A stretch of DNA of 64,000 bases, taken from the NCBI GenBank assembly GCA_033439295.1, contig JAVTLE010000014.1, positions 434,001-498,000 on the forward strand, read 5' to 3'. This document shows positions 110-53,400 of the stretch, one piece after another (the stretch's first letter is position 1; the number at the start of each line of letters is the position of its first letter). The notes below the pieces were generated by a model that saw only the letters and a program-made list of their open reading frames with translations, was not told where the DNA came from and ran no database searches. The stretch comes from Deuterostichococcus epilithicus. Its lineage: Eukaryota; Chlorophyta; Trebouxiophyceae; Prasiolales; Stichococcaceae. Made by a program: the position numbers and the translations under genes.

Positions 110-3100
110 ATGGCCGGAGTGTTTGGCAGTGGCGGCGGCAGCGGCGGTGGTGGCGGGCGCGGCAGCCGCGCGGCGCAGAAGCGACCCGTCGGCAGCTACA
201 CCCTGCCGCAGCTGGACGGGCCACTGGACCAGGACACGGATGCGGCGCTGCCGCAGCTGTTTCCCGATCCGTCCACCTACCTCAGGTGCCCAACCATGGA
301 GCAGAATCTGTCGGATCCCTCCGCCGTCAGGATGAGTTCAACGTTACCGCTGTCATTGTCACTCATCCTTCGGCTGAGTGCGGGCCAGGTGCCGCCTGGC
401 CTGCGGGACACCACTTGGCGTGCTTGACGAGTTGGCAGAGAGGTGGGACCCTTGCTGGCACGTGGTAGAGGCACCCCAGCCCGCTTCCCACAAGCTGTCT
501 GAGGCGTTCATGTGACGCTTGCAGCCTGCGAGACGCACGAGCATACCGTGCCTGGCTGTCCTGGTCGCACAAGCCGGCCTCGATGCGGCACGTGGTGCCG
601 TCGAAGGGCCACTTCTCACTCGGCCGCACCCGCGCCTTCAGCGGGGATTTGGCCACTCACGGCGTCCTGGCTGCCATGCTGAAGGTGAGGGGCCCGGACA
701 GTGAATCAAGGACTTCTCATTGCATGATGGGCCGCAGGGGCGGGAACTGTAGCCATGCCTATCGTCCTCAATGGTCTTGCACAGGGGTAGTCTGTTCATC
801 GTTCGTCACAGATTATGTGTGCGGCCCCCATGTATGCGGCATAGGCGGTTGGAACCCTGTGCAAAACGCAGGCGCGCAGCTTCGGGCAGGAACTCATCTG
901 GTTGCGGTCCTTCAGCGAATCCGACGTCAAGATGGTGCTCAACCTGATCTTCAATCTGCGCGACGTGGGGTGAGCGCACGAAAGGTTGCGCCACCGAGCA
1001 TTCTCAGCCTCCAAAGCATGCTGTGCGATGTTCAAGTGCAGGGGAGCTTGTGGCTCCACCAGCTGCAAATCCGGCCTGTGGTTGCCTGGCTCAACGTGTG
1101 TTGATGCGCTAATGCTGGGAGGGTCGTGACGCTGTGACTTTGTGAAACTTCCCTCTGGCCCCAGGTACAACCACTGGGTGCTGTTCGTTGGCGCTCAGCC
1201 CGGCATCTGCAAGGCGCTGCTGAAGGCGCTCCCCAGCGCAGGTGAGGCAGCCCCCACATTCGTCTTTGCGACCCTGTGTAGACGCACTCATTCGTCCAAG
1301 TCTTTCCGCAGTGCTGAACCAACCCACCCCTCATGCCGGCACGATGCCAGACGGGCCGCCTCGCATCCCTCGGTGCGGCTGCTGTTGTGCTCTTGTACTT
1401 CAGCGACGATCAATTGCAGGCTGCGTGTGGGACAGCGACTGGAGGCCAGAAGCGCCCGAAATGCCAGAGGCGCTGCGGGTGCTGCCGCTGGACGCCGCGC
1501 ATGCCGCTGGCTGGTGGCAGGTGCGCCATTCTCCCTGTCCGCCCTCGCTCCTGCCTGGCATTCTGTATCTCGTTCGATGGCACGTTGAACAGGCATGTGA
1601 GTGTAGTACTAATGCAAAGCAGTGCCAGCATTCGAACGTTTGAGATGTCCCTTGTTCAGGGTCCTATGAGACGCTGGCTGGCATGAAGGCAGCCTGCAAC
1701 GGTTTCACAACCCTGAAAGTGGAACAACGATCGGTGCCCTCAAGCACATCGTCCCCGCTCGCAAGGGAAATCCAGCCCTGGTTCCGGACTCCAACCTCTT
1801 AACCGCCGCCAAGGCGCGATGTGGGCGCGCAGGTGCTGAGGGTTATGCGGCGGGGGGTCAGCGTCCTGAGCCTGGCCGGAAGCGTTCTGCTGCATGATGA
1901 CGTCTACAAGTGCGCTGAAATTGCCAGCCCTGCCTCATATCCATCGCCTCGACCCACTGCCTTGGAGCCCAGCACCTCGACGTGGCAGACATGAGTGCCG
2001 CCAGGATAATAACCTCGGCGGGCTGTCGAAGTAGACCTGCGGATGACTTGACCCTAGCAAGTCGGCGGACATGTCGTCTAGGACCGAGCTCCCTTGCAAG
2101 CACCCTTGCTTTTCGGCGTTCAACCCTACGGGTCCTCTGTTTGCCACGTCGCACAGGTACCTCAAAGCGGACCCGTGGCGCCTTGGGGCGCTGGTGTGCA
2201 TGGTCGAGGGCGAAGGCTGCAACACTGACGTCATCTACATCAATGCCGCCGCCGCGTCGCCGGGCGGGCCTACGGCTCACCTACTGTGGCAGCTGGTGGA
2301 CAGGGTGAGCCGCCCTGACACCTTGTGGGGCCATGCGCTCTGTGCCCGCTGAGCATGGCCGCGCGGCCAGCCACATGCGGCGCACTCCTGCCAACAGATC
2401 AGGGTCTTGCACCTGGTTCCAGCGTGCTCACGTGACCCGTTCGAGGTTGGAAAGCGCAAGGTCAGTGGGCACGCAGCCGCTGCGCCGGTCGGAGGAGCCG
2501 GCGCACCTCCACTGCGCTGGCTAATGGCAGCGCCGTGCCCGACTGGTGGGACAGTTCTGTGCACCTCAACCGCTCATGCAGCATTCTGGCCGTCCTCCGC
2601 GCAGCCTGTGCGGTGGTCAGAGGAGCCGGTCGCATACACCGCGCTTGCTGGCGGTGGCGCCACGCCCGGCTGGTGGGAGCAGGAGCTCTTCACGGAAGCG
2701 CTGCTGTCGGCGAAAGCGGGACTGGCAGCGGCGCCGGTGCACATGCGGCAGCGCTTCCAGGGGCATTGGCACAAGGCGCGGTCTCGAGCGATGACCCTCC
2801 GGCGCTCTCCTCTGCTGAAGGGTCTGGCTTGGTGGAGTTCGCTGGCAATCGGGCATAAACAGCCCAAAACGCCTGGTCTGTTCATGCAGTCGATGCCGTT
2901 TTGAGGGGCTAGAACGGAACTGATGTCATTTGGCTATGCTCGTCTGTCCTGGTAGGATAATGGCACCGCATGAACATGTGCGCGCCTTCCACCCGATGTG
3001 GCAGAGCGTGTATGTGCAGCGGCGTAAACATGCGGTGGACTGCTGCGGCCAAGGCAGCTCCTGTGGGATTCGCGGTAGGGTCAGCCAAGGGCCGACACAG

Positions 3101-6100
3101 CTGACACGTGCCGGTGTTGGGCTGCAGTCGAGTGGCGAACTTGAATGGCAGTCGGTCCTGCGTACTTCCGCCGCGGCAGACCGGTGGCGCTTTGGCCTTG
3201 GCGAGTCATGTGCGCCCCCGCCCCCCTCCCCCACCTCCCTTTCGCCCTCCTCTTTTGGCCTCGGCCCGCTATTCTTGTCCTGCCCTCGTCAGGCACCTCC
3301 CTCCGCGGCCCGACTGTCAACAGAATCATGCTGGCACCCGACGCAATCTGCATGTGCCCAAAGGCAGGAAGCGTCTTGCTGCGGCGCGGTTGCAGACCTG
3401 CGTCCAAAGAACAGTCGGTGTCAACCGCCGTCCATGTTCTATTGAAGGCACCTTTCGTTTCGGTCTTCTTCTGTCCTCGAGCATGCGCATTCCAAGGGAC
3501 GTCTATAAATGCAGCTGCGCCTTGCCATGAGCCACGAGACATCGCAGACACGGAACCTGATGGGTCTCAAGACCTGAAATTTGAGGGGGCCGTGCCTGCT
3601 GCAGGGGAGCACCTGCGAGCGCAGCTGCGCCTGCCAGAGCGCGGTGCCAGGGGCCCACCGATCTTTAGTCGGCCGCGGGGCGCCATGTCGGCACGCCTGT
3701 GGGAGCAGCTGCAAGTGGAGGGCAGGTCAGACTTGCTGCACACCCAAATGCGTGCACATATACATCGTTCCAAAAGGCATGGTTCTCGAGTGCCTATGGC
3801 CTGTGCATCATCTCGTCCTGACACCCAAACAACCATTGCGAAACATCCACTTGCTGCATCGACCCCGCCTCTTCGACGAATCTGCACTGCGCCTGCACCT
3901 GAAGGCACATCACCCCGAGTGAGCCAGCGCATTTGCCGCACCAGCTTGTCGGAGCCAGAAATATGCTCGGAAGTGCATGCGACGGCGCTGAAGCTGGTTC
4001 ACAATCCGCTCGCAGCACGCCGCTGTGGCGAGATGGCGCGGGCGACTCTTCGCACGCGTCGCAGCAGTCGAACACCGCTCAGGAGGAGCTGCCAGAGGGG
4101 AATGACGCGCCGGAGGAAATCGCCTTGGTCAGCAACTACCTCAGCGACCCGTACCAGCATTACCTCATTGGGCCGTGGCGAGGTGCGACGCCGAGGCCAC
4201 TCCCTCGCGTGGATCTTTTTGCGCGGCTCGAGTGCAAGACCCTGTCGCCCAGCTACAGGCTTGCTCCTGGTTTGGAGGGCGTGAAGGACAGAGGTGCTGG
4301 AAAAGCTATGCATGGGTTGGACCTGCACACACCAAAGTCCATGCGCTTGAGCCGCAGCGCGGCCATACAACCGCCTCCCTGGTAGCAGGCTGGAAATTGC
4401 GCTCCATCGCCTATCGTCACCAGGCTGGGGGCGCTGTCTCAATATTGAGAATTCCATTAGCAATATGCTGCCAGTGATGTGCGCGCAGAGTATGAGTGCG
4501 GCAAGTGGTGGGGGCGGCGGCCGCCGCGTAATGCCATTACCAACCTGCTGACACTTCGGGGCGGTCCCGCAATGCGGCCTTTTGTGCTCAAAGTCCTGGG
4601 CTGGTGGCATTGGAAGGTGCGGACCAACCTGTCGGGCCTCACTCGAAGTGAGGGCGACTGCTTTCCATCTTGACTGGGTTTGGGCGTGGCTGCTGCAGGC
4701 TTGGGAACCTATCGTGTCACCTGCAGTCGGTCAAACCTGTTTACGCTGTTGCGCCGCCTTTGCAGCATGCACACTCTGGGATGGCCAACCTGGTCATCAG
4801 GCTTTGCAACCTGCTTGCATGCGCTGCTCTGCAGGTGCACGATGTGGCGGCTCAGCTCGCGGCGGGCAACCCTGGCCCCTTCGACTTCTCGCAACCGGGG
4901 GTGGCGGCGCCGCCGGTGGTGGCCTACGCCCCGGCGTTGCGGTTCGATCGGCTGTCGCGGCTGGAGCTGCGGGCAGCCGTCGTCAGCATTGCAGCGGTGA
5001 GACCACGTCGGTGACTGGTTGAGTGCCCAAACAGGGGCACCACTCGTGTGGTGCAGGAGCAAGCGCCGGGCAGCCGGACTTTCTCTCTCATTGAGGGGCA
5101 ATCGCAGGATGCAGGCTGGCGCTGCGCCGCTGTGATGCAACAGGCGACAGCGGCTTGCTGTTCCAGCACGAGTCTGCTGTGCCGTCATCAGAGGCGAGTT
5201 CGCATGGACACACTTGTGCGTTTCAGCGCGGCTGAGCAGCGCATTGCCTGCTGGTCAGCTGGACGCTGCGCTAGCCGCCTAGAACAGCAAGTCGGCTGCG
5301 CCGTTGGCAGCCGGCCCAATGTTGTGCCACTGTCCCCTGCCCGGTCTGCTGCGCCTGATGCGCAGCGCCGCTGCTGCTGCTGCCCTGGGCCTTACTCGGT
5401 ACAGCAGGGTTCCAACTGTATTCACATCCACACCGCAGTCCTGCTGCAGTTGCACCGCACATGGCACGCCTCAGCAGCCGGCTGCCGGTGTAGCTGCAGC
5501 TGGGCAGCCCTGGCAATGCCGGCAGCCACAGGAAAAGGCAGCGCTAGCCTCAGAAAGCATCCTAGCGTGCCCTGCGGCCTCCTGTGCCATGGCAAAAGAC
5601 CGCCTTCAAACAAAAAATCCTCCACCCTCGTTGTGCCTGCAGATGGCGCTGCTAAGCGGGCGGCTCCCCGTGTGGCCGCTGCTGGGCTGCGGCTCGCCGG
5701 CGCTGCTCGACCCCCCGGACGCTGCGCCGCAGACCTGCTCCGCCGGCGCACTCGAGTGTGGCCGCTGCTGGCAGGGCGCGCGCATGGGCGCACAGCTGAT
5801 GACGGTACCGGTCGTGGACGAATGGCACCCTGCGGAGGCACTGTCGTGCCACGCCTGGGGCGAGGACCACTGCCCCTCTCAGGTAGGTTTAGAGTTTGGG
5901 TGTGCTGCGCAAGCGCAAGCGCACAAACTGAGGCACCATCCCTTCCTGCCAGAGCTTCTCTGGAGGCTGAATGATGTTGGCCGGGCGCATGGTCGCCCCA
6001 CTTGATGCTGAGGAGTGCAGTGCCCGAAGAACAACTGGATTGCAGTGCCCCATTGATCAGCAGGTATCACAAGCCAACCCCCTGCCCGCAGGGAGTGAAG

Positions 6101-6806
6101 TACCCGGACTTCAAAGCGATGCTGCAGCACTGGGGCGCCGACGCCAGCGCGGGCCAGGCGGCGGCCCATAACACGCTGTGGCACCACGCGGCCCTCGGCA
6201 GCGCAGCCTCCAAGCACGGCGTGTCGGATGCGCTGGCGTGGTTCCACCACAGGGTGGAGCCCACCCAGGAGCAGGCGCAGGCACTGCTGGCGGAGCACGA
6301 GGGGAAGCAGGTGCGACGGCTGGCGCATGAGTGAAACCGTCTGTGGCAGACCTTCTTTCTGTGGACCTTTAGGCTGCTGTCACTGATCATGCAGCAGAAG
6401 CCAGTGGGGGGTTTGGCAGGTGTGCTGAGAGCTGCACAGGTCATGGCTGCAGGGTTGAGGGAATGCGGGGTACCACTGCTGCTTGCTTGCACTGCCGCAA
6501 GCAGAGCTTGGGTGGCCTGGCGCATTCCGAAAGGAGTGGCCTCTGCCCCTACCGCCCCATGTCACCTCGACAAGCTGGTCCTGAAGCCCACGCTCAACCC
6601 CCCCACTTTGAGTAGCTGGTATACTTGCCTTGAAGAGAAGTTCTGTTTGCCAGGTGGTGTACCTGGGCATGGTGCCGGTGCTGGCAGACGCCCGCTCTGG
6701 ACTGCGAGGCCAGCTCACGGAGTTTTTCGAGAGCTGCCTCGGCCAGCTGTACTTCGGCGGCGACAGGGCCGCCTTCGAGGAGCTCCTGCCGCCGCCGCCG
6801 CAGTGA
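110..6806 (+). CDS. putative nucleotide-diphospho-sugar transferase (GT77-like), multi-exon
   Basis: Spliced gene, probably a Golgi glycosyltransferase of the Nucleotid_trans (PF03407/GT77) type found in plant and algal cell-wall synthesis. Recognisable exons: 110-283 (Gly-rich start, then SYTLPQLDGPLDQDTD); about 583-686; about 880-970 (LIWLRSFSESDVKMVLNLIF); 1165-1241 (YNHWVLFVGAQPGICKALLK); about 1410-1520 (VWDSDWRPE); about 1815-1910 (VMRRGVSVLSLAGSVLLHDD); 2158-2304, which joins as VYK|YLKADPW and runs to CNTDVIYINAAAASPGGPTA and LVDR; 2605-2800 (RWSEEPVAYTALAGG). Later exons include 5642-5881 (MALLSGRLPVWPLLGCGSPA), about 6092-6310 and about 6652-6806 (VVYLGMVPVLADARSGLRGQ), ending at TGA 6804-6806. 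The chosen start is the first ATG of the Gly-rich exon. A good acceptor just upstream of it means a 5' exon could lie outside the window. The fold is recalled from family pattern, not searched. The part from 3100 to 5000 is poorly resolved, and a second gene there cannot be excluded. Confidence 0.55.
2474..2677. repeat. tandem exon ghost in the glycosyltransferase gene
   Basis: Positions 2474-2550 are a decayed copy of 2602-2677, offset 128 bp. Both begin with an AG acceptor, continue with codons for an R-S-E-E-P or W-S-E-E-P motif, and end at a shared TGGTGGG core. The downstream copy stays open and fits the gene. The upstream copy hits a TAA after about 15 codons in the same phase. Confidence 0.8.
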
Positions 6807-7584: not shown

Positions 7585-10500
7585 ATGGCCGACAAGCACG
7601 GAGACGCTGACGATGGTGACAAGCAGATTGAGCTGTGGAAGGTCAAGCGGGTGAGCACGGTGCACAGTGGATGCACAGTACAACATGCTTTCGATCAGCA
7701 ATCCACGACAAATGTCTGTATGCTGTGACACCTTCACATGCATCAAAGCATACTTGACAGGGGTGCCGGCATAGAATGCCAGTGTCTTTCTGGGTGCGAC
7801 CTCCAGAGCGCAGCTGCGCAGAGTCATGCGCGAGTGGAGGAGCACAGCTCTGCATCGACATACAATGCCTGTCCCAAATGCAGCTCATCAAGGGCCTGGA
7901 GGCCTCCCGCGGAAACGGCACGTCCATGATCAGCCTGATCATGCCGCCCAAGGATCAGGTGGGGCGGGGCCGAAGTAGCCTGCTGACGCAGCTTCGCACA
8001 GCACTGCCTGTGGCCGATGCTCAGGTGTAACGGCAGGTCACATGCCTCTGAAGACCTGCTCGTGTCTCAGGTGTCGCGGGTGCAGAAGATGCTGGCAGAC
8101 GAGTTTGGCACGGCGTCCAACATCAAGAGCCGCGTCAACAGGCAGTCGGTGCTGGGCGCCATCACCTCGTGTCAGCAGCGGCTGAAGCTGTACAACCGGG
8201 TGCGGAAGCGCAAAGGACTAAAGGTCTGCATGCACACCCCATGACGTGCACAGGGGCTCTGTGGCCAGCAGACTGTTATGCTGCGGGGGCGGCTGCACGT
8301 GCGCTGCGGTATGGTGCCCCACTGTCCAGAAGGCATTCGCAACAACGTGTGGCTTCTGCCTCCAAGATTGCCCAATGCCGCCATCCTGTCGAGAGCAGCA
8401 GCCGGCAGTGGCCGCTGATGGCAGCGATTGCTACCTTGCCCTTCCCTCAGGATGGCGCCAGCAGGACGCCCCTCCCCCCCGGTGGCGCCGCTCTGTCAGT
8501 AGGAGTAGCGAGGCTGTTTCTTCTGCTGCCAAGGAGCATGGGCACGGCATGGCTCGTCGCGCAGCGCTGCTGAGCGGAAACCGCAGCTTTGAGCCTTCAT
8601 AGCGTTCACCGCTCTTTTGCAGCCTTGCTGCAAGAGGCGCCTGTGGAGGCGCTGTGCCGCCAGCGACTTGACAGCACGCGGGGGGTCGTGTGCTGTGTTC
8701 GCTTGCAGGCGCTGCTGACTCAGCTGGTCGGACGGGGTCATGGAGCACACGCGTGGAGCAGCAAGTCGATGTTAATTCCCTCTATGGAGGGGCCGCCAAA
8801 TGGGCAGGTCGTATGCACGGGCACCATCCTGACGGAGGAGGGCAGAGAGGACACCGCTGCCGTGACGGCATCTCAGCACAGCCCTACACCTGTCACACCC
8901 GCCCGGTGGGCAGGTCATACACACAGTCACTGTCTCGACGCAGGAGGGCAGGCTGCGCAAGCCCACTGACGCGTCAAACATCACGGTTTCGACTTGTTCT
9001 GCGCAGCAGGTGCCACCCAACGGGCTGGAACTGGTGACCTACACGGGCTACATTGCGACGGAGAAGGCAAGGCGCACAAGGTCAAAAACGTATTGACATA
9101 GCATCTCACCTGAACTGCGCCATTTCCACCGTCTTTCAGGTGCCGCCCAACGGCTTGGTCATCTACACGGGCACCATCCTCACAGATGAGGGCAAGGAGC
9201 GCAAGGTCAACATCGACTTCGAGCCCTTCAAGCCCATCAACACCAGCCTGTACCTGTGCGACAACAAGTTCCACACAGAGGCGCTGTCCGAGCTCCTGGA
9301 GTCTGACTCCAAGTGAGGCTTGACCTGGAGTGATCATTTGAGCGTATTTCCTGTGCCCGTGTGGCAGCAGGGGCAGCATGGAGGCTTTGTCAGAAATGGA
9401 GCCTGTCGGAGTCCCGATCTTGAATGAATTTTGGTCCGAGACTTGAGGTTCAGTGCAACATATCGATGCCAACGGCGCTCTCAAACCACAGCCTGCGAGT
9501 GTATGTGACACAGAACCTGTGCAAATAGGCGCCTTTACAACCTTTACTCTGGTGTCAAGCCCGGAGCTTGCGCGGAAGTGCGCAGGCCGCGCGTGCTCTG
9601 TGCCCCCGACGCTTTCCCGGCAGTGCGCCAGCCGTGTTTCCTCCTGTGTGTCTCAGCAGGCTGCTGTCTGATCTATACTCGCAGGTATGGATTCGTGATC
9701 ATGGACGGCAACGGCAGCCTGTTTGGCACAGTGTCCGGCAACACGCGGGAGGTGCTGGGCAAGTTCAGCGTGGAGCTTCCCAAGAAGCACGGGCGCGGCG
9801 GGCAGTCGGCGCTGCGATTCGCGCGGCTGCGCATGGAGAAGCGGCACAACTATGTGCGCAAGGTGAGGAATTGCGATGGAGAGTGATGCTGGTCATGGTC
9901 ATGGGAGAACGGCATTGGATCTGGCGCCCGGCGGGTTTTGAGCGGAATTTGAGCGGAGCGGCGCTGGGTATACAGCAGGATGGCGCGTGCCCGCCGGCGG
10001 ACCGCTGCACGCCGATGCAGCAGCATAGCCCAATGGGTTGGGGGACGTTGCAGCAGTCTTGAAGCTGCTGCCTCGACAGATCCCGTGCCGAGAGCTGTCC
10101 GGCAAGCAACCTGCACCACTGACTTGGGTGGCGGGAAATGGGCAGGAAAACCGTGACGAAACCAACTCCGCCGATGGCCTGGCCGCAACCCTGATTCGCT
10201 ACACTGCGCCGTCTCCCAGGTGGCGGAGCAAACGACGCAGTACTTCATCACCAACGACCGGCCGAACGTGGCGGGGCTGGTGCTGGCCGGCTCGGCGGAC
10301 TTTAAAACGGAGCTCGCCGGCTCCGACATGTTCGACCAGCGGCTCAAGGCCATCGTCCTGCTCACCGTTGACGTCTCGTACGGTGCGGCGGTTGCACCTG
10401 CTTCCAGCTTCCGCTATGGGCTGGTGTGCGTGCCTCCAGGGGCTTGCTCGCCTGAGGTCTGTGAGGTAGTATAGCAGCCTGCAAGCTTGGAGGGGTGCTT

Positions 10501-12500
10501 GGCGGCAAGAGAGGCAGCGTTCAGAAAGCCTGTTGAAGCAGTTGCCTCCTGAAGCGACATTGGCGCCGCACTGCAGGCGGCGAGAACGGCTTCAACCAGG
10601 CCATCGAGCTGTCAGCAGCCGCTCTGGCCAACGTCAAGTTTGTTCAGGTGAGCTGCTTGGCCTGTAGTATCATCTTTGGTGGCGAGCACTGTGTGCCCTG
10701 TGCACACTGCATCCCAACAAGGCTGACGACCGTGCACATGCTACCATGTCGGACAGCGCCAGCCACATGCGACCGACATCTTCGCAGCTTTGCCTGTTGG
10801 CCAGGACAGCCGCTGGGAACTGCACAGCCGCTGGGAACTGCACAGTCTGCTTCACGCAAGCCGGTTGCAAGGCTTTGAGACGCATCCCGACCTTGGGCGG
10901 ACCGCTGCAGACGCACTTGCGCTCCGCTCGACCGACCGCAAACCTCCCGCTTGCGACCCACCCGCGCAGGAGAAGCGCCTCATCAGCAAGTTCTTCGACG
11001 AGATCAGCCAGGACAGCGGCAAGCACACCAGCGGCGTCAAGGACACGCTGGCTTGCTTGGAGATGGGCGCCGTGGAGACCCTCATTGTGTGGGAGAACCT
11101 GGACATCCAGCGGCTGGAGGTCCGCAACCCGTCCACAGGTGGGTTGTACTCACTCGTAATCACCTTCTAAAGACATAGTCGCGAGCTCGGGCACGTCCCT
11201 GCCGCCCGGTGCGCCCCCGACAGCACCATCGTGTGTGGGAGGCTCTCAACGTGCATTTGAGAGCCCCGATATCCAATGGCTGGAGGTCCGCACCCCGTCA
11301 ATGGGTGCGCGGCTGTTTGTATCCCCGCGCCGGTCAAGGAGAATCGTGCAGCTGGCAAAGGAACGAGATTGATGCAGTGCGATATGCAGAAATGCTGAGC
11401 AGGGCAGCAGCACGCCATGTGTGGCGCTGTCTGTGCGAGAGAACGGAGCGCATTGCGCAGAGTTAGATGCGATATACCTGCGATGTCTCGCTCACGATGC
11501 TATCGTTCCCTGCCGCCATGCGGGCAGGACGCCATCGTGTTACCAGCTGACGCCAAAGCAGCCCTGCATTGCGGCGCTATCGAGGAGTGTGCGGCACTCA
11601 ACCTAATGTCCATGCCTGAGCCATCGTCGACCATTCCCCACCCGCAGGGCAGGACGACATCGTGCTGCACCTGACGCCGGAGCAGGCGACAAACGACGAG
11701 TTCTTCCGCGACAAGGAGACTGGCGCCGAGCTGGAGGTCACCGACAAGAAGCCGCTGCTCGAGTGGATGGCGGAGAATTACAAGAAGGTGGGAACTTCTT
11801 CTGCTAGTACCTCCGTAGACCAATGTAGTTGTAGACAGATGAACTGGGCAACTCGCACGAGTTTGCTTGTCAGGTGCGTATGTCTCGGGTGTCCGGCAGC
11901 GCAGCCGCAGCAGGCATCCTGGTGATGGCCTTTGGGCGCTGTGCCGGCTTGCTGGAACCTCAGAACTTGGGCACGGTCGCTCAAGCGTCAGAAAGAGATG
12001 TGGTAGGCATGGCGGGAGGGTGCTGCAAGTGCTGCAGGCCTGGCTGGCGTGGCCATACCCCGCAGCACTGATGTCACTGGGATCGGGCACGTTCGAAGTA
12101 TCAAGGGATGCAATGTCGCTGTCTGGCTGATACCATGCTCTGCTCTGCACTGCAGTTTGGTTGCCAGCTGGAGTTCGTGACCAACAAGTCGCAAGAGGGC
12201 TCGCAATTCTGCCGCGGCTTCGGCGGCATCGGCGGCATCCTGCGCTACAGCGTGGACACCACCCTGAACGAGGTGCGCCCTCCGTGTGCCGCCTGGCAGC
12301 CCCGTGCATGTATGTGAGACGCGAATGGCGCGGTTGTTGCTAGCGGTTCTCTTGGGCAGTGGCGCCGGCTGTCAAGAGAGAAAGTCCCCACCCGGCTCAT
12401 TTCATACTTGTGGATGCGCGCTATCGATGTCACATTTGCCGTGGTGCAGGTGGACGAAGACCTAGACAACATTTCATGGGCGTCGGACAGCGACATCTGA
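7585..12500 (+). CDS. eRF1: eukaryotic peptide chain release factor subunit 1 (eRF1)
   Basis: Cytosolic class-1 release factor that reads all three stop codons and triggers peptidyl-tRNA hydrolysis with eRF3. Eleven exons: 7585-7650, 7884-7958, 8071-8199, 9140-9312, 9685-9862, 10220-10382, 10577-10647, 10970-11138, 11648-11787, 12156-12272, 12450-12500. All introns are GT-AG and all phases agree. They give 443 aa, against 437 in human. The N domain has the stop-codon-reading TASNIKS motif (exon 3) and the YLCDNKF motif (YxCxxxF, exon 4). The M domain has the catalytic [20 protein letters not shown] block (exon 5). The C domain has [17 protein letters not shown] and [20 protein letters not shown], which form the eRF3-binding part. 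The acidic tail ends ..SWASDSDI. The intact NIKS and YxCxxxF motifs fit a standard genetic code. Introns 3 and 8 contain ghost copies of neighbouring exons. Confidence 0.97.
8789..9217. repeat. three successive ghosts of eRF1 exon 4 in intron 3
   Basis: The start of exon 4 (9140-9217; [20 protein letters not shown]) has three decayed copies in the 940-bp intron before it. Copy 8789-8852 reads [20 protein letters not shown]. Copy 8895-8962 reads [21 protein letters not shown]. Copy 9007-9089 has an AG acceptor and reads [18 protein letters not shown], then shifts frame by one base and stops. Spacing is about 105-130 bp. Confidence 0.9.
10806..10845. repeat. 18-bp perfect tandem duplication in eRF1 intron 7
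   Basis: The unit ACAGCCGCTGGGAACTGC occurs twice head to tail (10806-10823 and 10824-10841), followed by ACAG. It is a short, recent intronic duplication. Confidence 0.95.
11084..11310. repeat. ghost of the 3' part of eRF1 exon 8
   Basis: The end of exon 8 with its donor (11084-11143) recurs in decayed form downstream at about 11228-11310. The shared core is ATCCA followed by GGCTGGAGGTCCGCA and CCCCGTC. The copy has an internal insertion and a stop. Unlike the exon 4 ghosts, this one lies downstream of its parent and carries the donor side. Confidence 0.8.
11521..11694. repeat. ghost of the start of eRF1 exon 9
   Basis: 11521-11563 copies the start of exon 9 at 11646-11694. The shared core is GGGCAGGACG, C, ATCGTG followed by CTGACGCC and AGCAG. 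A weaker third copy may begin near 11491. Confidence 0.75.
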
Positions 12501-21093: not shown

Positions 21094-21135
21094 GGGCGGC
21101 GCAGCGGCCTGTCCACCGATTGCCGAGCGGCGCAT

Positions 21136-23554: not shown

Positions 23555-23600
<46 letters not shown>

Positions 23601-38400: not shown

Positions 38401-41400
38401 GCACGGTGGGGCGCCTGCGGTGCGAGGCTGCAGAGCTGCAAGTGCGGCTGCGCCTGCATGTGCAGAGCAGGCGCGCAACACGTTATTGGCATTCGCCAAC
38501 ATGCCTGGGCAGGACTGCATTATGCTGTGGCGTTGACAGTGCGCCCCCGCTGCACAGCGGCAGGCCAAGGCGTCCCTGGGCACTGCACGGACACGACACC
38601 ACACCCGAGACCCGGGTGGTGTCCTTGTTCTGGCGTTTCCATCCCTGGTCCATGGCTGTCGCTGTGTTGCCAACGTCCAGCATTGCCACGTCATGCCAAA
38701 ATAGGACCTGCAAGAGGTTGCCTAGCGGCCCTCAAACGCGCTTGCATCCAACCATGCGCACGTGGCAACAGTCAAGCTGGCTGACCGGTCCATCGATTAC
38801 TTCAAGTAAGCCAGCATGGCAGGCCGGAACCTTCCAAGAAGTCCTCCGGCGAGAGGCCTACATTGTGACTGCCAGCCCCTGAACCCAAGCACACCTGATC
38901 CGTACCGCTGGCCGGCCCCAAACTGCTCTCACACTGCGCAGGCGGTGCTCTGGCAGGCGATGCCGCGTGGCGCGCCCGCTGGCAGCCGCCGCTACTGGCG
39001 GCGCTGACCGGAGGCTTCCCGTCTGCAGCTGGCCCCCCCGCCAGAAGCCGCAGCACAGCCTCGGCCACGGCCCCAGGGCCGCCCGCCGGCACCGATGAGT
39101 CTCCGTCTTCAACGGCAGCACCACCCGCGGCAGGCGCAGGGCCTTGTGCGCCGCCCGTCGGGGCATCATCCGCAGGCGTCAGCTGGCCGCCGGGCTGTGG
39201 ACACTCGGAGGCGGCGACGCTGCTGCGGGGCCATTCGTCCACATATGCGCTGCCGCCGGCGCTGCGGCTGGACCCAAGCAGCCTGGCGCTGCTCGTGGGG
39301 GCGCTGCTGGCGCTGCCAGACGCCAGCATGCAGGTGCGAACGATGTCCCTGACGAGGTTCAGAGCTCTTGAGAGCGTGTAGAGCGTGTTGAGCAATGCTG
39401 GGACGGGCGGCCTGGCGCTGCACGTGGGCGCGCCGCTGAAGCTGCCAGGCGCCAGCGCGCAGGTGCGAGCCAAAACACCTCTGACATGGTATGAGCCTGT
39501 GAAAGCCGGGGTTGTGCTGGACTCGGCAGGCTGGCGCTGTGCTGCGGCTGTCTGATGCGAGTGTGCAGGCAACACCCTTGAGCAGTGCAGCGCTTCGAGG
39601 GAGTGAGACGAAGGTGCTGAGGGCACCCGAAGCCAAATGCACAATATCTACAACTGTTCTGCTCAGCGCGGTGCTGAGCAACCTAGCAAAGCTTTGCTCA
39701 GAAAGAGCTGCAGACGGCCTTTGTGCAGTGTGTAAACAGCTATGTGGTTTCAGGATGTTTGCATACCCTACGATTTACTAGGCCTTGCAGGCGTGGCGTA
39801 GCGCAGTGGCAGGGTCCTCCGCCGCTTTCTGATCCCGATGACTCTTGCTGAGCAAAGGGGGGCATGCAGTCGGCAAGCTTCCCACAGCTGCTGCCCCGTT
39901 CGGGGAGCAGCATTGTCCAGAGCTGATTGAGCGGGCACATGTCCCTGCAGCTTGCGATGGCTGCAATGACATGACTCCCTGATTCAGCCCTGAACCGGCC
40001 ATGGCCCGCCGATTGGGGATTCCTAGATCACACACTGTTCTTTCTTGCGCACACTCACTGCTGTGTGCCTCAGCAGGTGCCGGCGCTGCTGGCGGTGCTG
40101 AAGGTGGGGCGCGCACAGGGCCTGATCGACGACCTAGACGACATCGTGTCCGGCTTTGGGGGCGGCTCCAGCGGCAGCATCAGCAGCGACGGCGCCGGCG
40201 GAAGCGTCAGCCCAGACGCCGCCGGCGTGGCGCATCGCACCGCCAAACGTGGCGCCGGCAGCGGCGCATCAGACCAAGGCGGCGGCGGCGGCGGCGGGGT
40301 GCGGGTGCCGTTCGCTTTGCTGGCGGCGGCGGTGGGCAGTCGGCGGGAGGGCGTGCGAGTGGACGCGCTGCAGCTCATCTGCACCAACCCTCGCACCTCG
40401 TCGCTGCCAGGTGGGAGCAGGGTCTGCGGTTCTGGGGTGTTCACCGCCAGGCGTATGGTTGCGGCGACACCTATGAGGAGGTTGAGTGCAGGGGCACCGG
40501 CACGGCGAGGCGATTAAGGCGCCGTAAGCCTGACATGAGCGGACACGCAGCTTTGTGCATGGCACGAACGATGCAATGCACAGGCACAAGCTCATCAGCT
40601 CGCACATGCGAGAGGAAGGTCTTGCCCAGGGCATTTGCAAGCGTGTTGCAGAGACTCTGCGGGGTACCATTAGGCAGTTGCGATGGACAGCCCGGCACAG
40701 TCGGTGTCTACACTTGCTTGCAGCCAGCTGAGACGCACTGTAGACGATGACGTATAGTGAATCTCAGATGGCTCAAGTAGGTGTGAACAGCGAATATCCA
40801 CACGCTAGAGCATTCATACACGAAGAAGCTGGCTCAAGCACGCCTCTGCCGTTGCTTCGGCTGCTGCATGCCTGTCCAGGCACCAGCGTACCAGGCTGCA
40901 CCGTCAAAGGGTTGCCACGCCTCAAAACCCGCTCCGCGCATTGCGGCAAGTCATGCTCCATAATCATGCCCCAAATGCGCAGGCGAAGCCGAGCTGCGGC
41001 TGATGCGCCTGGCGGTCGGTCTGGCCTTCCGCGCCACATCCCGCTCGCTGCACAACAAGTGGCGCGGCCTGGCCTCCCACTTCCTCACGCGGCTGCGGGT
41101 GGCGGCGGCGGCGGCGGCCCACCGCGCTGCCACGCAGGCGCGCGGCGGCGGCTTTGGGCGGCACGGCGGCGGCGGCGGCGGAGAAGTAGACCCTGAGAAG
41201 GACGCCGCAGGTGATGTCTCGCTGTGACAGTTTTCGAGTCGAGGACGATGTGTCTGGCAAATGTGCCTCGTGGCCATGCAAAGCTGGAAGGCAAGGCGCT
41301 CGTGTTTTAAAGAGACGCTGCGGCAAGCATCAGACTTGCAGCCTGTATAATCCGTCCCGGATCTCTCGATCTCCTGTCAAATCAGGGTCGGTTGGCGCAG

Positions 41401-44400: not shown

Positions 44401-47400
44401 TTCAATTAGCACCTCTCATCTCACATCCAGATGCATCTTGGGCTGGAAGTACTGCTGCCAAAGTACTGAACCCTGCCGCCTTCACCCACTGCGTTCTGGG
44501 CCGCAGGTCGCCTTGGCCCCGTCTTGTGTTTGAGGTTTTGCTGGACTGCGGCCAAACGAACCGAAAGCGAACTTGCCGTCTGCACACAGGCGGATGTGGA
44601 GGCGGGACGGCACGACGTCGCCGCAGCAGCACGCCGCAGCCTGGCGCACGGGCCGCTGCTGGCCGTACGCAATATTGCGGATGCATTCCCCTGGAGAGGC
44701 GCGCAACATTCACTCCAGCTGCCTCCAAACTTTTGTTTGACTCTTTTTCACGATATTGTCTGAGCACCTCAAGCTGTCGTGCAGCTCGTTGGAGCGATGG
44801 CAGGCATCGTGCGACGTGCTGCACGCTGCCTTCCGGCGCGGCAGCCCGGCACCGCAGGTTGCAAAAGGTGTTTCGCCATTGCGATGGCTTGCGGTCACTC
44901 GTCTCATGCAGAGGTGGAGGCGGATGCAGCGGCCAAGCCGGCGGCGCAGGCGCTGCTGGCCCGGCTGGCGAGGCTGGCCATGGAGGCAGCACGGCTGGCG
45001 CTGCCGGCGCTCGCGCGGCCGCAGACCGCCAACACGAGTGCGACTCCGAAGGTTTAGGGTTTAGCTCTGTTTCACTGCTGGCCTCGGCCCTCCGCATTGA
45101 CGTGGCCGCCTGTGCTCATGTCGGCGGCTGTGGGCGTCGTCAGCTGTGGTGCCGACTTGCCCAGTCTGGCGCATGTACCATGTCGCGTCAGCAGGGTGGC
45201 TGCAGCATGGCAGCGCGCAGCCTCCTTGCTTGGCCCGCGTGCCCATGCTGATGGACCCAGCATGACTTGCAAGCCTGGCAATCGAGCTTGCAATCCCCCT
45301 TGAAGCATCCCCCGTGAACGTCCTGCAGCCGCAGAGGATGTGCTGGGAGAAGAGGATGACGAGATGGAGGACGCCGCTGGGCCGGAGGGTGCGGCGCCCA
45401 GCGACAGCGGCAGCGAGGCAGGGTCAGCCAGGTGGGCCATGGCTCCTTACCCTCCAAGCTCACGCTGTGCTGGCGACAAGTGGCGAGGCTGGGTCTGCAG
45501 GCCAGCGACAGCGGCCAGTGTCAGTGGCAGCTGACGGCCAGTGTTGCAGCAAATCACCGGTTATGTTAGACCGGACCCGCTCCCTGACCGTGCGACTGGG
45601 CTCATCGTGCGCTGCAGGCGGGCTGGCGGCGAGGTGGCGTCCCCAATGTGGCCAAAAACACAAACAACCCTCGACTCACTGCAAATGTGTGCCTTTGATA
45701 TATGACGTAGGCGGGCAGGCGGCGAGCTGGCGCCCGCGGCGCAGCTGGTGCAGACCGCCAGCTGGCTGACGATGAAGGAGGCTGCGCTGCTGACCGGCAC
45801 CCTGGCGCGAGCGCTGCCGACGCCCAGTGAGTGTGTTCATTCGGGTCTCCTTGCTTGGGGCAACCAGCCTGGCGCCCAGCGATTTTTCCTTCTGAGACAT
45901 CGGGCAGCGATCCTCCCAAACACTCAAGTTCCGGACTGCGAGCTCAGCCAGCTCGGCTGCCCGGGTCGGGGCCAAGCCTTTTTTGGTGATCCACCAGGAC
46001 AGCACTGGATTATCTGGCGGATCTAGCGTTAACTGCCAGACATCGGCGCAGAGTGGCATGCATTTCATCAGCGCAACCCCCGGGAGCTGCGCCCCGGGTG
46101 CGCAGCTGTCAAACACATCCACACCGGCGATGTCTTTCAGTGGAGGTCGAGTGCCTGGTGCGGCTTCATGCGCACCCGCCAGTTGGCCTACTGGAGGCTT
46201 TTGCATGGACTGCAGCGATGTGTGTGCTCGCCAAGGCTGATGATCAGCGCACAATTTCCCGCTCTAGAAGGCTGCCCAGGCCGGCATCAAATGGCCTTGC
46301 CGCTGCAGACCTGATTTGTCCCTTCGGATCAGGTATGGTGCCAGCAACACTGGCACCCTGCTTTTCGCCACCCGGCCTTCATTGCTTCCACCTAGCAGGC
46401 TAGCGGAAGTGGATACTCGTAATCTGAAGCAGCCGGGGGTGAGAGGTTGCTGTCTACAAAGTCTCGCAAGGATGCGAGCTGCAGCAGGTTTCCCATATCA
46501 TTGTTCTTGCTTTTGACATGCGGCCAGATGGACGCCCTGAAGAAGCAGCTCATGGCGCTGAGCTCCTGACAGACCTTGCCTACTGCATTGTTGCATCGTT
46601 GCTGCTGTGCGCCGGAGGCACGTTGTTCGACATGGATGCCTCGAGCGTCTGGGGGCGCAGCTGCTGAGCATGATCACGGTTCTGGACCCCGAAAGAACCT
46701 GATCCCGGTTCAATGCTCTATCGTGCACTTCATCAATTGTGCACTTCAGGCTTGCTGCTGTATGGATGAGCCCTGGAGCGGCCCGGGCGCAACTGCTGGA
46801 GCGATGACGGCGCAGGCAACCTTGCGCATTCTTCCCTGGGGGTTTTTGAACTCAATGGTGCTGTTTTTTCCAGGCATGCTCCTTGGCAAGGAGGCCCTGC
46901 AGCAGCTGGGGACGCAGCTGCTGGGCGCGATGACGGCGCTGAAGCACAACGGCGCGATCGAGAAGGCGCAGGCCGGCTTCCACGCCCTGTGCTCCAGGCA
47001 AGGACGTCGTCTGAGAGGGGCAAATTGCCATCAGATTCGAGCAGTGCGGTTGACGCATGTTCGCACAGAACGCCACACCTTGGAGCGCTGCTGAGCCTCC
47101 TCAGTCTCTGGGCAGCACCAGATGCTGGGCACCCGCTTCTGCCTGCCAATGAGCAGATTCCATGTAGAGGCCCCCTCGCCCCGAGTGACCATCAGTGTCC
47201 TGGTGGCAGGCGGCTGTTACTGCCGAGCGGGCGTGTTGATGCGGGCAGTACATCTCAGCTCTTCACACCCTAGAACTTCAGCTGTGTTTTTCCGACTGCT
47301 GACTGCATTGCGTGGCGTGTGGCATGTGGACTCCACCGCTTCCTGACAGCTTGCAGGCGTGTGGCTGGCCCCACAGCCACTCCATGCCCCAACGCCACTC

Positions 47401-50400
47401 CCGCTGCACGCCGCGAACGGGCCGCCGCGCAGCGTCTGCAGCATGGCAGGGAGTGTCGCTGCCGGTGCTCTCTTGGACGGCACTTCTTCCACAGCTTCCT
47501 GCATCCTGCTGCCTGCAGGCTGCTGCTGGAGCCGGACCCCGCGTTGGCGGCGCTGCCGAGCGCCTGGCTTGGCGAGCTACTGGACGCCGCAGCCGCGCCG
47601 CGGCAGACGGTGGACGACGTCATACGGCGCTCCGCCGGCAGCCCCTTCGCCGTCACCGCCATCCTGCTGGCGGAGCCGGCGCAGCAGACCCATAAGGTTT
47701 CTTGAGCACAATGGCCGGAGGCACAGGCGATGAGCATGTTGGAGGCATGCTGGTGTCGAGGATCCATCAGCCCGTGTGCCAAGCCGCAGCGGTGGCGCGT
47801 GTGTGCGGCAGTCAGGCCAGGACTGCAGAGGCGTATCGCCTCTGCCTTGTGCGCCTGTCCTTGGCCGAGAGCCCGCTCCTGTCCCCACACTTGCAACTGC
47901 CCAGCGGCACATGCATAGTCTGGGGTCTGCTGCGTCTTTCGGACCAGCGACATGCTCAAACCAGAGGCCGGCTGCAGGCTCTCGCTTTCCTTGTCAGTGT
48001 GCGATGCCCACTCAAGGCCTCAGACCGGGCGACACCATGCTTTTCTCATCCCTAAACCTGCCAATTGAAATGGCTTACTTCTGTCGCTGTGCTGTGACTG
48101 CGACGCACAGGTGTTGCTGACGACCGGGCTGCGGCGGCTGCTGGCTGATGCTTGTTCGTTCTGTTGCTGTGTCGCACAGGCGCTGCTGACGACCGGGCTG
48201 CGGCGGCTGCTGGCGGTGGCAGGCGACGCCGCCGCGCCAGAGCCCTGGCCGCGGGTGCACGCGCTCAACATGCTGCGCCTGGCCTTCTCCGAGCGGGACC
48301 TCGCCATCGACGGCTCCGCCTTCCTCGCAGAAGGTGACGGTGCCTGGGGATGGCTGCCCATCGAATGCATCGGTTCAAACCTGTTCATCACCTGATGGCC
48401 CGCCAGCCATCCCTTCCTGGTGTACAGTTCCCCCGGCCTGCAATCTGTGGGTCGGCTGAGGTGCCGAGGCAGTCGACTCGGCTGCGACTGCAACCCGCCA
48501 CATTCAGAAGCAACGTACGAAATTCGGCTGCCCCCCGCCGCACAGGCCTGCAGGCTGCGGTGCTGGCGGCGGGCGACGCGCGGTGGGAGGTGCGCAACGC
48601 CGCCAACCTGGCCTTCGCCGCCATGGCCGCCCGCCTGCTGGGCTACAAGAACCTCCTGCCGGTGAGCACGAGTCGAGGTGTTCTGCCCGTCCATCTCTAC
48701 ACGGCATGCCAGGCGCCGCCTTTGTGGCACACAAAGTTTGCTTGCAGTTTTCTATATCATATAAAATATTTTTTGCCGTGCCCAGCGCACGCCTCTACCC
48801 CAGCTGCTGAGCGAGTGCGACAGCATTGCCTGGAGCTGCTGCGGCTGCAAGCACTGGTGCAGGCCTCATCCCGCTCGAGCCGCTGCGAGTGAGAGCATTC
48901 CCGCGGCGCTGGCGCCTGCCTGGTATCAAGCGCAGGCGCAGTCCGGCCCGGTTCGGACCGTTGGCGGCGGACCTGTCCCAGTGGCACCCGCAGCTGCGAG
49001 GCTTCCTCCATTGCTGCGCCATCTGGCTGTAGAGCCGGCTGTTACAAATGTGTCACGGACACTCACACTTCTGTATCGCTTAGGTTTTGTTTTGTTGTGC
49101 GCAGGGCCAACCGGGGCTGTCTGCGACGGACCTGTTCCAGCGGCACCCGGCGGTGCACGGCTTCCTGCTGCGGCAGCTGGAAGAGGCAGCGACGCAGCTG
49201 AAAGCGGGGAGCGCTGCCGCCGGCGGCGTGGACGTGCACCCCAGCCTGCTGCTGGTGCTGGCACTGCTGTCGCGTCTCGGGTGGGTCGCTGGCTGCGACT
49301 GACGCTGGCCTGCTCTCATGAACCCGGGCCAACAAGTGATGCTCAACGAGTCCCGCGCGCTCCCATAGCCAGCTCAACCGGCCGCTCGAACCCCACAGCT
49401 TGCCTTATGGTCGATCTCTCGTGACACTGCCCAGCTGGCGCATGAGTAGCCCTGCGCAACTCCCTCCTGGCCGACTGCGCCAAGTGTCCCGCCTCCCAAA
49501 CAAAGTTGTGCGTGTGTGTTATCTCCAGGCCCTCGTCTGAGGTACGAGCAGCGGCGACGGGCCCGAATGGCGGTGGCATTTCTTCATCTTCCCCCTCGCC
49601 GGCAGACCTCCTGCCGGCGGTTCGCGCCTGCGCCGCGGCGCCGGTGGCTGCGCTGCGGGTCATGGCGNCAAGGGCGGCTGTGGCGCTGCACCCGCCCGGC
49701 GGCGGCGCGGCGGCGCTGCGGCAGCTGCTGGCGGCGCTGCCGGGCGCACCGCCCATCCAGCACCACAATGCGGTGCGGTTCTCCCTTTACAGGACCGGTC
49801 CTGGTGCGCAGCAAGGGCATGAGCGAGGCGCCGGTGCACTGGTTTGGCTCCTCGAGCTGGGAAGCGCGCCCGCTTCTGCAGCCTAGCTAGCGCTCCGTAC
49901 CCGCATTTCAGAGCAGTACATGCGCTCGTTGCGTGGCAAGTTCCCTCTGAGCCTCCGCCGCGACCGCCCCCCGCAGGTGCACGGGCAGCTGCTGCAGGCG
50001 CGGGCGCTGCTGGCAGCGCAGCTGACGGGCGGCTCGCGAGACGGCGATGCGCTCCTCGCCGCGACCGCCCCAGCATTCACGTGCGACCAACCGCACATCT
50101 GTGCAGCTGCTGCTGTGGCCTCGCTGGGCACATTTGACTGAACAAGGCCGTCAGCTCGCGAGCTGGGCTTGCCCTCTGGGCGGCCACCGCAGGCTGCTGG
50201 CGAGCCGCAAGCTGCTGGCGACGCCCGCTCCATGCTGAGGCACTGCGCGGGTCTGTAGCTTCGAAACCTAAACCTAAACCCGAAGGAACGATCCTGGTGT
50301 CCGAGCCCGTCGTGTCCATGCGCACAGATCCGCGCTGTGGCTGACGACGGCGGCCTGCAGCTGCGCTCCCATACGCGTAGAGGCGGTGCGGCTTCTGCGG

Positions 50401-53400
50401 GACCTTGCAGCGCTGCCGTGCTCGCCCGGCAGCCGCCAGCCGGGCGCCTTTGCTGCCGCCGCCGCCGAAGCGTGCTGGCCGGAGCTGCTCAGGTGCTGCT
50501 CCGCTACGAGTGGCACCAACAAGTTTGACTGGACGTGGAACCCTCGTGCTGCATGCGCCGCTACGAGTGGCAGAAACTCAATGCATATGCCCACTGACAG
50601 CATCTTCGGTGGAAGTCATTCCATGTCGCGACCTCCGCAGTCGGTGCAAGGCGCGGCAGGACAAGACCGCTTGTGTGAGGGCCTGCAAGGGCAGTGCCCA
50701 CGGTAGCGCCGGGCGTGCGGCGCTGTCGGCGCTGTGAACGCCGTACAGCACACTCGATGTTTGCTGCTGCAAGAGAGCCTGTGTGAGGGGCTACAAGGCA
50801 CTGCCTTTAGGCACTGCCGGGCGTACAGCGCTGTGCAAGCGTTGCTGCTGTGCTGTGCTGCTGCTGTTGCTCAAATGTATTCTGCATGTGAACACCTATC
50901 GCTGTACACAGCAACGTGCGAGCTGAACGGCCGGCGGAGGGCGCGTGATGACTGCGCTGTCGAGGGCACTGCTTTGCAAAGCTGTTGATGCAGCCGTAGT
51001 AAACACTCCTCATTGTTTGCAGTTCACAGCTACCTGCTGCATGGATGCGGCATGGGGAGCTAGCTCCGCTTGCTCTGCCTACTCAGCTTGCAGTGCGAGC
51101 CCCGGCTTCTGTTGCTGCCGCGTGACTCCCCGACTCAGCGCAGCAGGCCATCCTGGCGTGCAGGTCAGGCAGCGACAGCGGCACGGACGCGGCAGACCCG
51201 ATGCGCAGCATCTGGCACCTCGAGCTGGGGCGGCTGTGCTGCGGGCCGCTGCTGCCGCTGCTGCCGGGCGCCGCAGCCGCCGGCCAGGGACTTCAGCAGC
51301 CACACGCGGGCAGCGCTGACGGGCAGGGGCCAGGCTACGATGTTGTTGCCCGGGTGGCAGCGGCGATCAGCGTGCCATCAGAGGACCTGCGAGCATCGGC
51401 ACTCAAGGCACTGATTGTCGGGGTGACCGCACGCCAGTCTCCAGGAGAAGGTGGGGTTGCTGCTTTGTGATGTGCACGAATGGTTTTGCGCAGCCCTGCA
51501 GCCCTCAGCCTGTCCAACAAACCTGCAAGACTGTCCAGTGCCTTTCGCCTGCAGCTCGGCTGCTGACAGTCTTGATACCTATCCGGCCTGTTGTCGGATG
51601 CACCTGGTGTTCTGCTGCAGACTGGTCTGAATCTGCTTTTCTAACCTGTCAGTCAGCGACGTGAAGATCCAAACGTGGAGTGTCCAATGTGTCCAGCACA
51701 GCTTGTTGGCGCAAGCGGCGGTCGTGTTGCTGATGCGATGCAGGCGCGCAAGCGTGGGCGTGGCTGTTGCCGCCGCTGGCGTCCCGTCTTCAGGCCGGGG
51801 AGCGGCGGCCAAAGCCGCTGCGCCGTGCTCTGCGCCTGGCCGTGCTGCTGGCGCATCATGCAGGGTGGGTCAGCGCTTCGGCAACGGGTTGCTCCGTGCA
51901 GCTGACAATCTGGGTCCATTTGCCATTGACCTGGAGTGTTGATGCCTGGTGAAGCGTCGTACCCATACCAGCCTGTGACTTGACAATGAGAAGCTCATGC
52001 AGCTGTCGTTTCATTTACCAAAGCTGCAATTCAGAGCTGCAACTCTGACCTTGGCCGGCCTTTTCGTTCTGCAGGCCTGGGGAGGCAGGCATTCTCTGGC
52101 GGCAGGCGCAGGCAGCCTTCGGCAACAGCAGCTACCCCGCAGTCAAAACCGCCGCGCTGCGCTGCGCTGGGGCCGCGCTCGGCCGGCTGCAGGAGCTTGA
52201 TGGCAGTGACACTTCCGCCGCGCTGCCGGCGGCCGCAAAGGCAACAGTGTCAGGTGTGGGAGCGGCGCGTGCTGCAACAGCCCGTCATCCGGACCATCTC
52301 GAAGTGGCTGCGGCGGCGGCGAAGTCAGGTGGAACAGCTGATGGCGCAGCAGAGGCGGCGGGCCTCACAGCGGCGCCCGGCGCCCCGCCAGCCGCGACCA
52401 ACGGGGCGGCGCCAGCGGAGCTACAGGGGTGGTTGCTGGATGACGTGGAGGGCAGCAGCGGCGCCGCTGCCGCGCCAGAGCTGCGGCTGGCGGCTGTCGA
52501 TACCCTTGCGTCCTCAGGTGCCCGCATTTCTGTGCAACCAATACAGTGCCAAGGCTTTGGCGCTCATGCTGCCGGTTTGCTCACAAATGCATCTGAAGAG
52601 AGCAGCAGTGCATGTGCGGACTAAGACTTGCGCTGCGGCTGCCCTGCTCAAGGCATGCTGCATCGTGGCACCGCCTCATTGCTAGGTTGTGTCGCGAGGT
52701 TACACAGCCCAGCTGTGATGGGAGTCGTGCGCCGCGGAAGGTTCCGAGCTGTACTGCTACACGTACGCTCAGGCTCAGGGTTTGCAGTGCGGAATGTGCG
52801 ACAGCAGCGTCTCAGCAAGCGGTCCTGCAGCCCAGAGCCCTTAACAGGCAGTTGCGACTGCTGGGTGCAGGCTCAGGCTGACGCTGCGACCCCACAGCCT
52901 GCAATCCCCGTCTGAGCAGCTGCACAAATTAGCCGTGATTGCCTCTGGTCATCAGCGCAGATCAGAATCTGTGCCGCTTCCCCTTATGACTTGGCGTAGG
53001 CTGGCCATAGCGCAGACTGAACGCATAGAGAAAGTCCAGGCTTGTAAACTATCGCTCTTGCGTGAGTTCGAGCAAGGGTCCCATGTCGGCTAGATAGACC
53101 GTTTGTTGATTCATTTCTCTGCTGATCCTGATCCCCTGGTTCACAGCAGGACAACTGAACACCTTGAAATGGTACAGGTATGCTGCGTCTGCCGCCGCCG
53201 CCGCACTCACAGCAGCAGGAAGCAGGTGGATCGTGCGCAGCGGCCGACGCAGCGGAGATGGCGCTTCAGGCGTGGCTGCTGGCTGTGGAGCTCATGGAGG
53301 ACGAAGACGATGAGGTGAGCTGTCAAAGTACTGACAAATTGTGGGCCTGAACCAAAAATGTTATGGCCCTGAAGCCCAGCGACTGCTCCGCCTTTGGCCT

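Follow-up and report, generated by a model that had tools for sequence, protein, structure and literature searches.

A PNAS paper of 2007 reportedly derived human introns from tandem arrays, and duplications are said to be dealt with in papers on rice (2014) and on paired nicks (2016). For the potato RdRp gene PGSC0003DMG402000361, a tandem duplication spanning the boundary of intron and exon has been described (Ma, Lan and Niu 2016, PMC4974935), and the duplication of exon segments is reviewed as a source of new introns (PMC3443670). Small tandem duplications formed via Pol alpha-primase fill-in at break ends are reported for human and mouse cells, in a paper whose introduction connects insertions occurring naturally in humans and plants with the repair of breaks (PMC8355091), while exonic bases having a homologue of at least 80% identity are given as 0.08% in fly, 0.06% in worm and about 2% in human (PMC9013439). 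Herein, we analyzed a 64,000-nt stretch of the green alga Deuterostichococcus epilithicus (C12:434001-498000, contig JAVTLE010000014.1; hereafter the window), together with further loci of its 46.8 Mb genome (21 contigs), where some introns carry decayed tandem copies of the edge of an adjoining exon, which we call ghosts. The initial annotation of the window mentioned intron gain by tandem duplication and introner elements, but knew of no genome whose introns grow throughout in this way. With the potato case published, the phenomenon is not of a wholly new kind; among the titles listed in the literature searches, none treats junction-crossing duplications genome-wide as a mode of intron growth, which is weak evidence of novelty given the poor coverage of subscription journals.

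Two samples were used, a first one of 224 kb consisting of the window and 16 loci of 10 kb taken on eight contigs, and a full one of 284 kb, to which six further loci on six contigs (60 kb) had been added. All exon edges are predictions of a small hidden Markov gene model, trained on hand-set exons of eRF1 and then on the sample itself. In a self-BLASTN of the 224 kb (pairs of at least 38 bits; without low-complexity pairs and without the coding repeat array L013:6400-7800; pairs belonging to one array counted separately), direct pairs numbered 40 at offsets of 60-200 bp and 7 at 200-400 bp; at 400-1000 bp there were none, and larger offsets were represented by 2 pairs (1-3 kb) and 11 pairs (beyond 3 kb). 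No inverted pair reached the same score in the 224 kb, and two replicates of a Markov-1 control gave no pair at 60-200 bp. As for the 47 pairs at 40-500 bp, 44 touched a predicted exon and 32 joined coding with non-coding sequence; in eight, predicted exons took in part or most of each copy (at least two being ghosts that had been miscalled as exons), four were wholly coding repeats, and two of the three pairs without exon contact were ghost-ghost pairs. The six later loci yielded seven direct pairs at 60-250 bp, one in L020 and six in L024 with none in the other four, and six inverted pairs, every one at an offset above 400 bp. Four extra loci (L001, L002, L026 and L027) gave no pair of at least 36 bits.

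The self-alignment of introns against their flanking exons that had been proposed along with the annotation was carried out on the full sample. Each of 539 predicted introns was aligned to its own flanking exons (score of at least 110), with the exons of other loci and the reverse complement serving as controls. As a result, 46 intron-exon matches were obtained in 40 introns (7.4%), as against 1.5 with the exons of other loci (0.5 upstream and 1.0 downstream) and 2 with the reverse complement (2 upstream and 0 downstream). The claim that introns hold decayed tandem copies of the adjoining exon edge was thus borne out by a clear enrichment. Chance or base composition as the cause was ruled out by the Markov-1 sequences, the opposite strand, the other offsets and the exons of other loci, and these results confirmed that the exon-edge ghosts are real, beyond chance and present outside the window, though unevenly spread, four of the six later loci having no strong pair. 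The matches were about equally divided between the upstream (5′) exon (25) and the downstream (3′) exon (21), at variance with the statement that most copies are of the acceptor type.

After low-complexity matches and those of the L013 array had been dropped, 43 of the 46 matches were retained. Their offsets were mostly at 60-200 bp (36 of 43; median 132 bp), and the match came within 5 bp of the splice site in 35, extended to the far end of the exon in one and covered the whole exon in none, the matched portion being 52% of the exon at the median. The mismatch rate between exon and ghost was 0.233 at the first codon position, 0.229 at the second and 0.282 at the third, and 27 of 38 ghosts had a stop or frameshift inside the block, with none in the other 11. 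The even mismatch over codon positions and the broken blocks suggested free decay beside a conserved exon, and argue against alternative exons. Ghost splice sites appeared by eye to be neither retained nor purged, CAG or a donor still standing beside many ghosts. Chains of ghosts were found in single introns of eRF1 (8788-9085), L012 (3520-3860), L019 (6684-6984) and L009 (3120-3383). Introns with a ghost had a median length of 485 bp versus 222 bp for those without (p=3e-11), longer introns also giving more search space. The 42 offsets below 300 bp together made up 6,091 bp, or 3.9% of the 157,964 bp of intron sequence, so that, also in view of the share of introns with a detectable ghost, the description of introns as "filled" with copies was an overstatement.

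The clearest junction-crossing case was found in L024 (9202-9467), where, in a unit of 133 bp, the start of the exon accounts for 57 bp and the end of the intron for 76 bp. The ghost is identical to the real exon at 51 of 57 positions and the two intron spacers to each other at 72 of 76, both with the period of 133 bp; the frame past the ghost hits a stop in the spacer, and the real exon stays open. In L019, two units of 66 bp are identical at 62 of 66 positions. In both arrays, the duplication plainly holds both sides of the junction. Pairs within non-coding segments were also in excess, with 24 as against 2 at a score of at least 105 in 520 segments; several of them were ghost-ghost or simple-sequence pairs, and about half of the 26 best were judged by eye to be without a ghost link. 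On the evidence of the young arrays and the non-coding pairs, the simplest account is that short tandem duplications arise at random and that the exon serves as a preserved reference, and since weaker pairs also occur inside introns, the exon would mainly make the events visible.

We consider it probable that the ghosts originate from short tandem duplications crossing the exon-intron junction, after which the copy not used in splicing decayed neutrally. In this mechanism, short tandem duplications of about 60-250 bp (median offset 132 bp) would arise in and around genes, and some would cross an exon-intron junction to give a transcript with two copies of that splice site. Splicing at the copy adjoining the exon body would restore the old mRNA, and the intron would lengthen by one repeat unit without harm, while the unused copy, being composed of both exon and intron sequence, would escape selection and decay. 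As the real exon hardly changes, a duplicate would stay recognizable in its exon half about twice as long as in its intron half, or as a wholly intronic duplication would. The duplications themselves may come from the repair of staggered double-strand breaks, by analogy with mammalian cells (PMC8355091). The initial annotation had put forward much the same process; duplication across junctions and decay of the unused copy are in agreement with the direct orientation, the offsets, the partial extent, the codon pattern and the two young arrays, and the choice of the exon-proximal copy by splicing is suggested by the open frames and the protein alignment of eRF1 described below.

Several observations weigh against this mechanism. 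In an anchored test on intron-side homology (29 sites chosen, 25 long enough), which simulates small indels only and was based, in L019, on a ghost other than the nearest, homology was above the null in 10 of the 25 sites and at or below the simulated neutral 5% level in 17; this simulation and those of block length, block identity and constant rate rest on assumed duplication sizes and indel rates. Medium-sized indels and selection against spare splice signals may be the cause of such weak homology, and at L024:7353 the ghost acceptor was, by eye, seemingly removed by a deletion. The BLAST blocks likewise departed from the simulation in being shorter and of higher identity, with a median length of 56 bp and with 27% of them at an identity of at least 85%. 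Strong pairs having neither an exon nor a ghost as partner were few, only one of at least 38 bits being present in the 224 kb (window 50662), and the less stringent search of non-coding segments softens, but does not remove, this exon-contact bias of the BLAST set. In the L012 chain, the nearest ghost (39/48) is no closer in sequence to the exon than the farther two (48/56 and 39/48), a weak point against a simple succession in which the nearest ghost would be the youngest. Furthermore, in a set of 47 pairs (41 from the 224 kb and six of the seven from the later loci, one wholly coding pair being dropped; several share an array and are not all independent), an identity of at least 93% was found in one pair versus 8.7 predicted at a constant rate (p=8e-4), and of at least 90% in three versus 12.6 (p=4e-4). 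Random duplication at a constant rate was hence ruled out for the youngest classes, and either the process has slowed or such copies are missing from the assembly; the "continuing" source of intron growth of the initial annotation is accordingly unproven.

These points bear on the possibility of exon-edge-specific, splice-site-bounded copying (e.g., filler synthesis or RNA-templated repair), which would place exon-edge copies together with unrelated spacer into introns. Such copying would account for the block ends within 9 bp of a predicted exon edge in 26 of 41 BLAST pairs, for the 17 sites with intron-side homology below the neutral simulation, for the single strong pair lacking an exon or ghost partner and for spacers that do not continue the exon, continued exon having been rejected as the nature of the spacer with only 1 of 31 at p<0.05. 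The young arrays in L024 and L019, however, repeat the intron part along with the exon part, intron-side homology exceeds the null in 10 sites, pairs within non-coding segments occur at similar offsets, and the lengths of exon part and spacer are both broad. Wholly unrelated spacers, as in a target-duplication-like insertion, had been suggested by an ungapped view, and were reduced to a minor rival by the spacer homology in the young arrays and by the flank comparison (p<0.05 for 14 left and 6 right flanks out of 52 each). Taken together, the weak intron-side homology, the scarce near-identical copies, the exon-contact bias and the L012 order keep exon-edge-specific copying in consideration as an unlikely explanation.

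The remaining alternatives have lower probabilities still. Alternative or mutually exclusive exons, kept for a splicing choice, could be read from the unbroken blocks in 11 ghosts and from the hidden Markov gene model, which called several ghosts as exons (eRF1 9010-9066, THADA 39382-39462 and L008 near 7407-7594), but the absence of whole-exon copies, the near-even mismatches, the prevalence of broken blocks and the full-length alignment with known eRF1 of the protein lacking one such ghost (ghost c) make them very improbable. Creation of introns by duplication of an AGGT-bearing exon segment belongs to the same class of mutation and is the subject of the review cited above (PMC3443670); it is nevertheless a highly implausible source of these copies, as ghosts lie mostly on the intron side adjoining the exon copied, within longer introns, whereas an intron of such origin would derive entirely from exon sequence and have the copy at its other end. 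Spacers flanked by repeats do look like an insertion with a duplicated target; when the 539 introns were compared all against all, however, only 11 matches appeared (E≤1e-3, complexity cut) and no family, the longest lying within one locus (L004) and one being the L024 array itself, and nothing recurred in more than two introns except CAG-type simple repeats. The repeat length here is also far above that of usual target duplications, and an introner-like or transposon insertion is scarcely conceivable. Merged haplotypes or misassembled reads might be suspected from the Ns of 1-2 bases scattered in the sequence and from the near-identical copies being so few, a scarcity that collapse would produce, but the copies show differences of about 7-30%, are located at splice edges and have decayed in the manner of neutral DNA, and an artefact would not respect exon edges, so that we give this origin next to no credence.

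The features of the window are summarized in Table 1. Its self-BLASTN (at least 34 bits after a complexity filter, offsets of 40-500 bp) gave 14 pairs, near 2472, 5457, 8788/8793/9007, 11093, 11522, 37970, 39278, 46649/46770, 48089, 48964 and 50662, and with the exception of the one at 50662, each has a predicted exon edge, or the ghost of such an edge, as a member; no pair was detected near 52.1 kb, the right end of the span first annotated. Of the three genes named there, eRF1 was confirmed against PDB structures and THADA/TRM732 by Pfam DUF2428, while the sixteen-exon predicted gene at 101-6803, labeled as a glycosyltransferase, had no Pfam match and its label was not confirmed. With two false exons omitted, one of them a ghost, the eRF1 protein could be aligned with solved eRF1 over its full length. 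The individual examples were well reproduced: the reported identity of 33/35 was recovered between 48111-48145 and 48180-48214, both donor-type copies matched the ends of the exons assigned to them, and three decayed copies were found before the real eRF1 exon at 9138, two of them also by tblastn. A presumed eRF1 paralogue on C11, considered for intron comparison, was rejected as not a close eRF1, since the window eRF1 gave no tblastn match (E≤0.01) in L001 or L002.

Table 1. Ghosts, their reference exons and an intron-internal repeat in the window (exon limits from the hidden Markov gene model, HMM).
Feature	Position	Strand	Evidence
Acceptor-type ghost (acceptor + exon start) of exon 2605-2736	2472..2551	+	76.5%/81 bp to 2600-2678, offset 128
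Used exon, reference for ghost at 2472	2605..2736	+	HMM gene model
Weak acceptor-type ghost of exon 5643-5882	5457..5508	+	75%/52 bp, offset 182, 36.5 bits
eRF1 ghost a (PPNG...TGTILTEEG), start of exon 9138	8788..8844	+	79%/57 bp, offset 350; tblastn E=5e-5
eRF1 ghost b	8899..8951	+	75.5%/53 bp to ghost a, offset 106; tblastn E=0.005
eRF1 ghost c, CAG before it	9007..9085	+	75%/80 bp to 9137-9210, offset 130; model exon 9010-9066
eRF1 used exon	9138..9312	+	Protein without ghost aligns to eRF1 structures, E=2.5e-215
Donor-type ghost, end of eRF1 exon 10970-11138	11259..11307	+	79.6%/49 bp to 11093-11141, offset 166
Acceptor-type ghost of eRF1 exon 11648-11787	11522..11561	+	82.5%/40 bp, offset 125
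Acceptor-type ghost of THADA exon 38106-38291	37970..38025	+	73%/56 bp, offset 128, 34.6 bits
Donor-type ghost, end of THADA exon 39176-39333	39407..39468	+	85.5%/62 bp to 39278-39339, offset 129; called exon by gene model
Weak ghost of THADA exon 46874-46988	46649..46679	+	84%/31 bp, offset 257, 34.6 bits
Ghost of THADA exon 46874-46988	46770..46813	+	82.6%/46 bp, offset 124
Acceptor-type ghost of THADA exon 48180-48333, best preserved in the window	48089..48145	+	87.7%/57 bp, offset 69; exon part 33/35
Ghost of THADA exon 49105-49280	48964..49026	+	76%/63 bp to 49123-49180, offset 159
Intron-internal tandem pair (50662-50726 / 50770-50834), no exon partner in gene model	50662..50834	+	75.8%/66 bp, offset 108

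Some further observations concern the gene models and repeats of the sample. According to the gene model, the splice consensus in the introns of the window and of L004-L019 is CAG|GTGMG and YGCAG|G, and GC donors, which the model permits at a penalty, make up about 5% of the predicted donors. In an Aha1-like gene of L008, 7407-7457 and 7544-7594 are exon-like copies with 82% identity, both called as exons by the model; the Pfam AHSA1 match begins at the second copy or its neighbor, and a ghost has possibly been read as an exon there. A coding tandem repeat lies inside one predicted exon of L004 (5257-5559) with an offset of 123 bp (41 codons), as in many ghosts, and the L013 array excluded from the counts is a long degenerate repeat array (6461-7748). 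Telomere-like 12-mers (CCCTAAA repeat, at most one mismatch) formed 19 clusters in 284 kb versus none in one Markov-1 control, 17 in predicted introns, two intergenic and none in exons; among the sites are window 5886, 45049 and 50270, L004 8789, L005 2125 and 7240, L009 2209, L010 2426, L012 5977, L016 3975, L022 596, and L024 371, 4950 and 8716. On the sense strand of the gene, the TTTAGGG form tends to stand just inside the donor (5/7 within 40 bp) and the CCCTAAA form near the acceptor (7/10 within 51 bp), and these clusters could be break-repair scars or splicing signals. With 39 chlorophyll-binding domain matches, the genome looks photosynthetic from its sequence, and the contigs C2 (14,706 bp) and C8 (29,103 bp), very small beside the megabase contigs, are perhaps organellar or unplaced.

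Compared with the described systems, the ghosts resemble the potato RdRp type in that the duplicate holds an intron end and an exon start with splice signals, most clearly in L024 (9202-9467); the potato gene, however, is one case, read as a new intron with a cryptic donor (PMC4974935), whereas here about 40 matches were found, the copy being dropped into an existing intron and decaying. The reviewed model of intron gain likewise invokes a short tandem duplication rescued by splicing, but there the duplicated AGGT-bearing exon segment gives a new intron, whereas here existing introns grow (PMC3443670). Short direct tandem duplications are common to our sample and to break repair in human and mouse cells (PMC8355091), though the mechanism is here deduced from the product only, and most breakpoints on the intron side have decayed too far to be located. 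Exon homologues in introns were found by similarity search both here and for tandem exon duplications (PMC9013439), which concern exon duplication and alternative splicing, in contrast to the exon edges and neutral decay observed herein. Exonic bases with a copy of at least 80% identity in the adjacent intron amounted to 0.57% (438/76,643 nt, 10 ghosts), which, set against the fly, worm and human values of that study, hints at an enriched genome, with the reservation that only adjacent introns were counted here, that the methods differ and that human introns are far longer. Introners, too, represent a bulk gain of intron sequence, also in green algae, but share sequence between genes (PMC9860276), whereas the copies here match the neighboring exon.

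Overall, the initial interpretation of the window was partly supported: its core is correct, whereas the extent, the continuity and the novelty of the process were overstated. Where transposons are few, the lengthening of introns is hard to read, since intron sequence erases its own history. The ghosts provide each event with a conserved reference copy, from which the size, place and relative age of duplications become readable in one genome. This would allow genome-wide measures of the spectrum of small tandem duplications, of their share of intron length and of how fast spare splice sites disappear, and it also serves as a warning for gene finders, by which ghosts can be called as exons.

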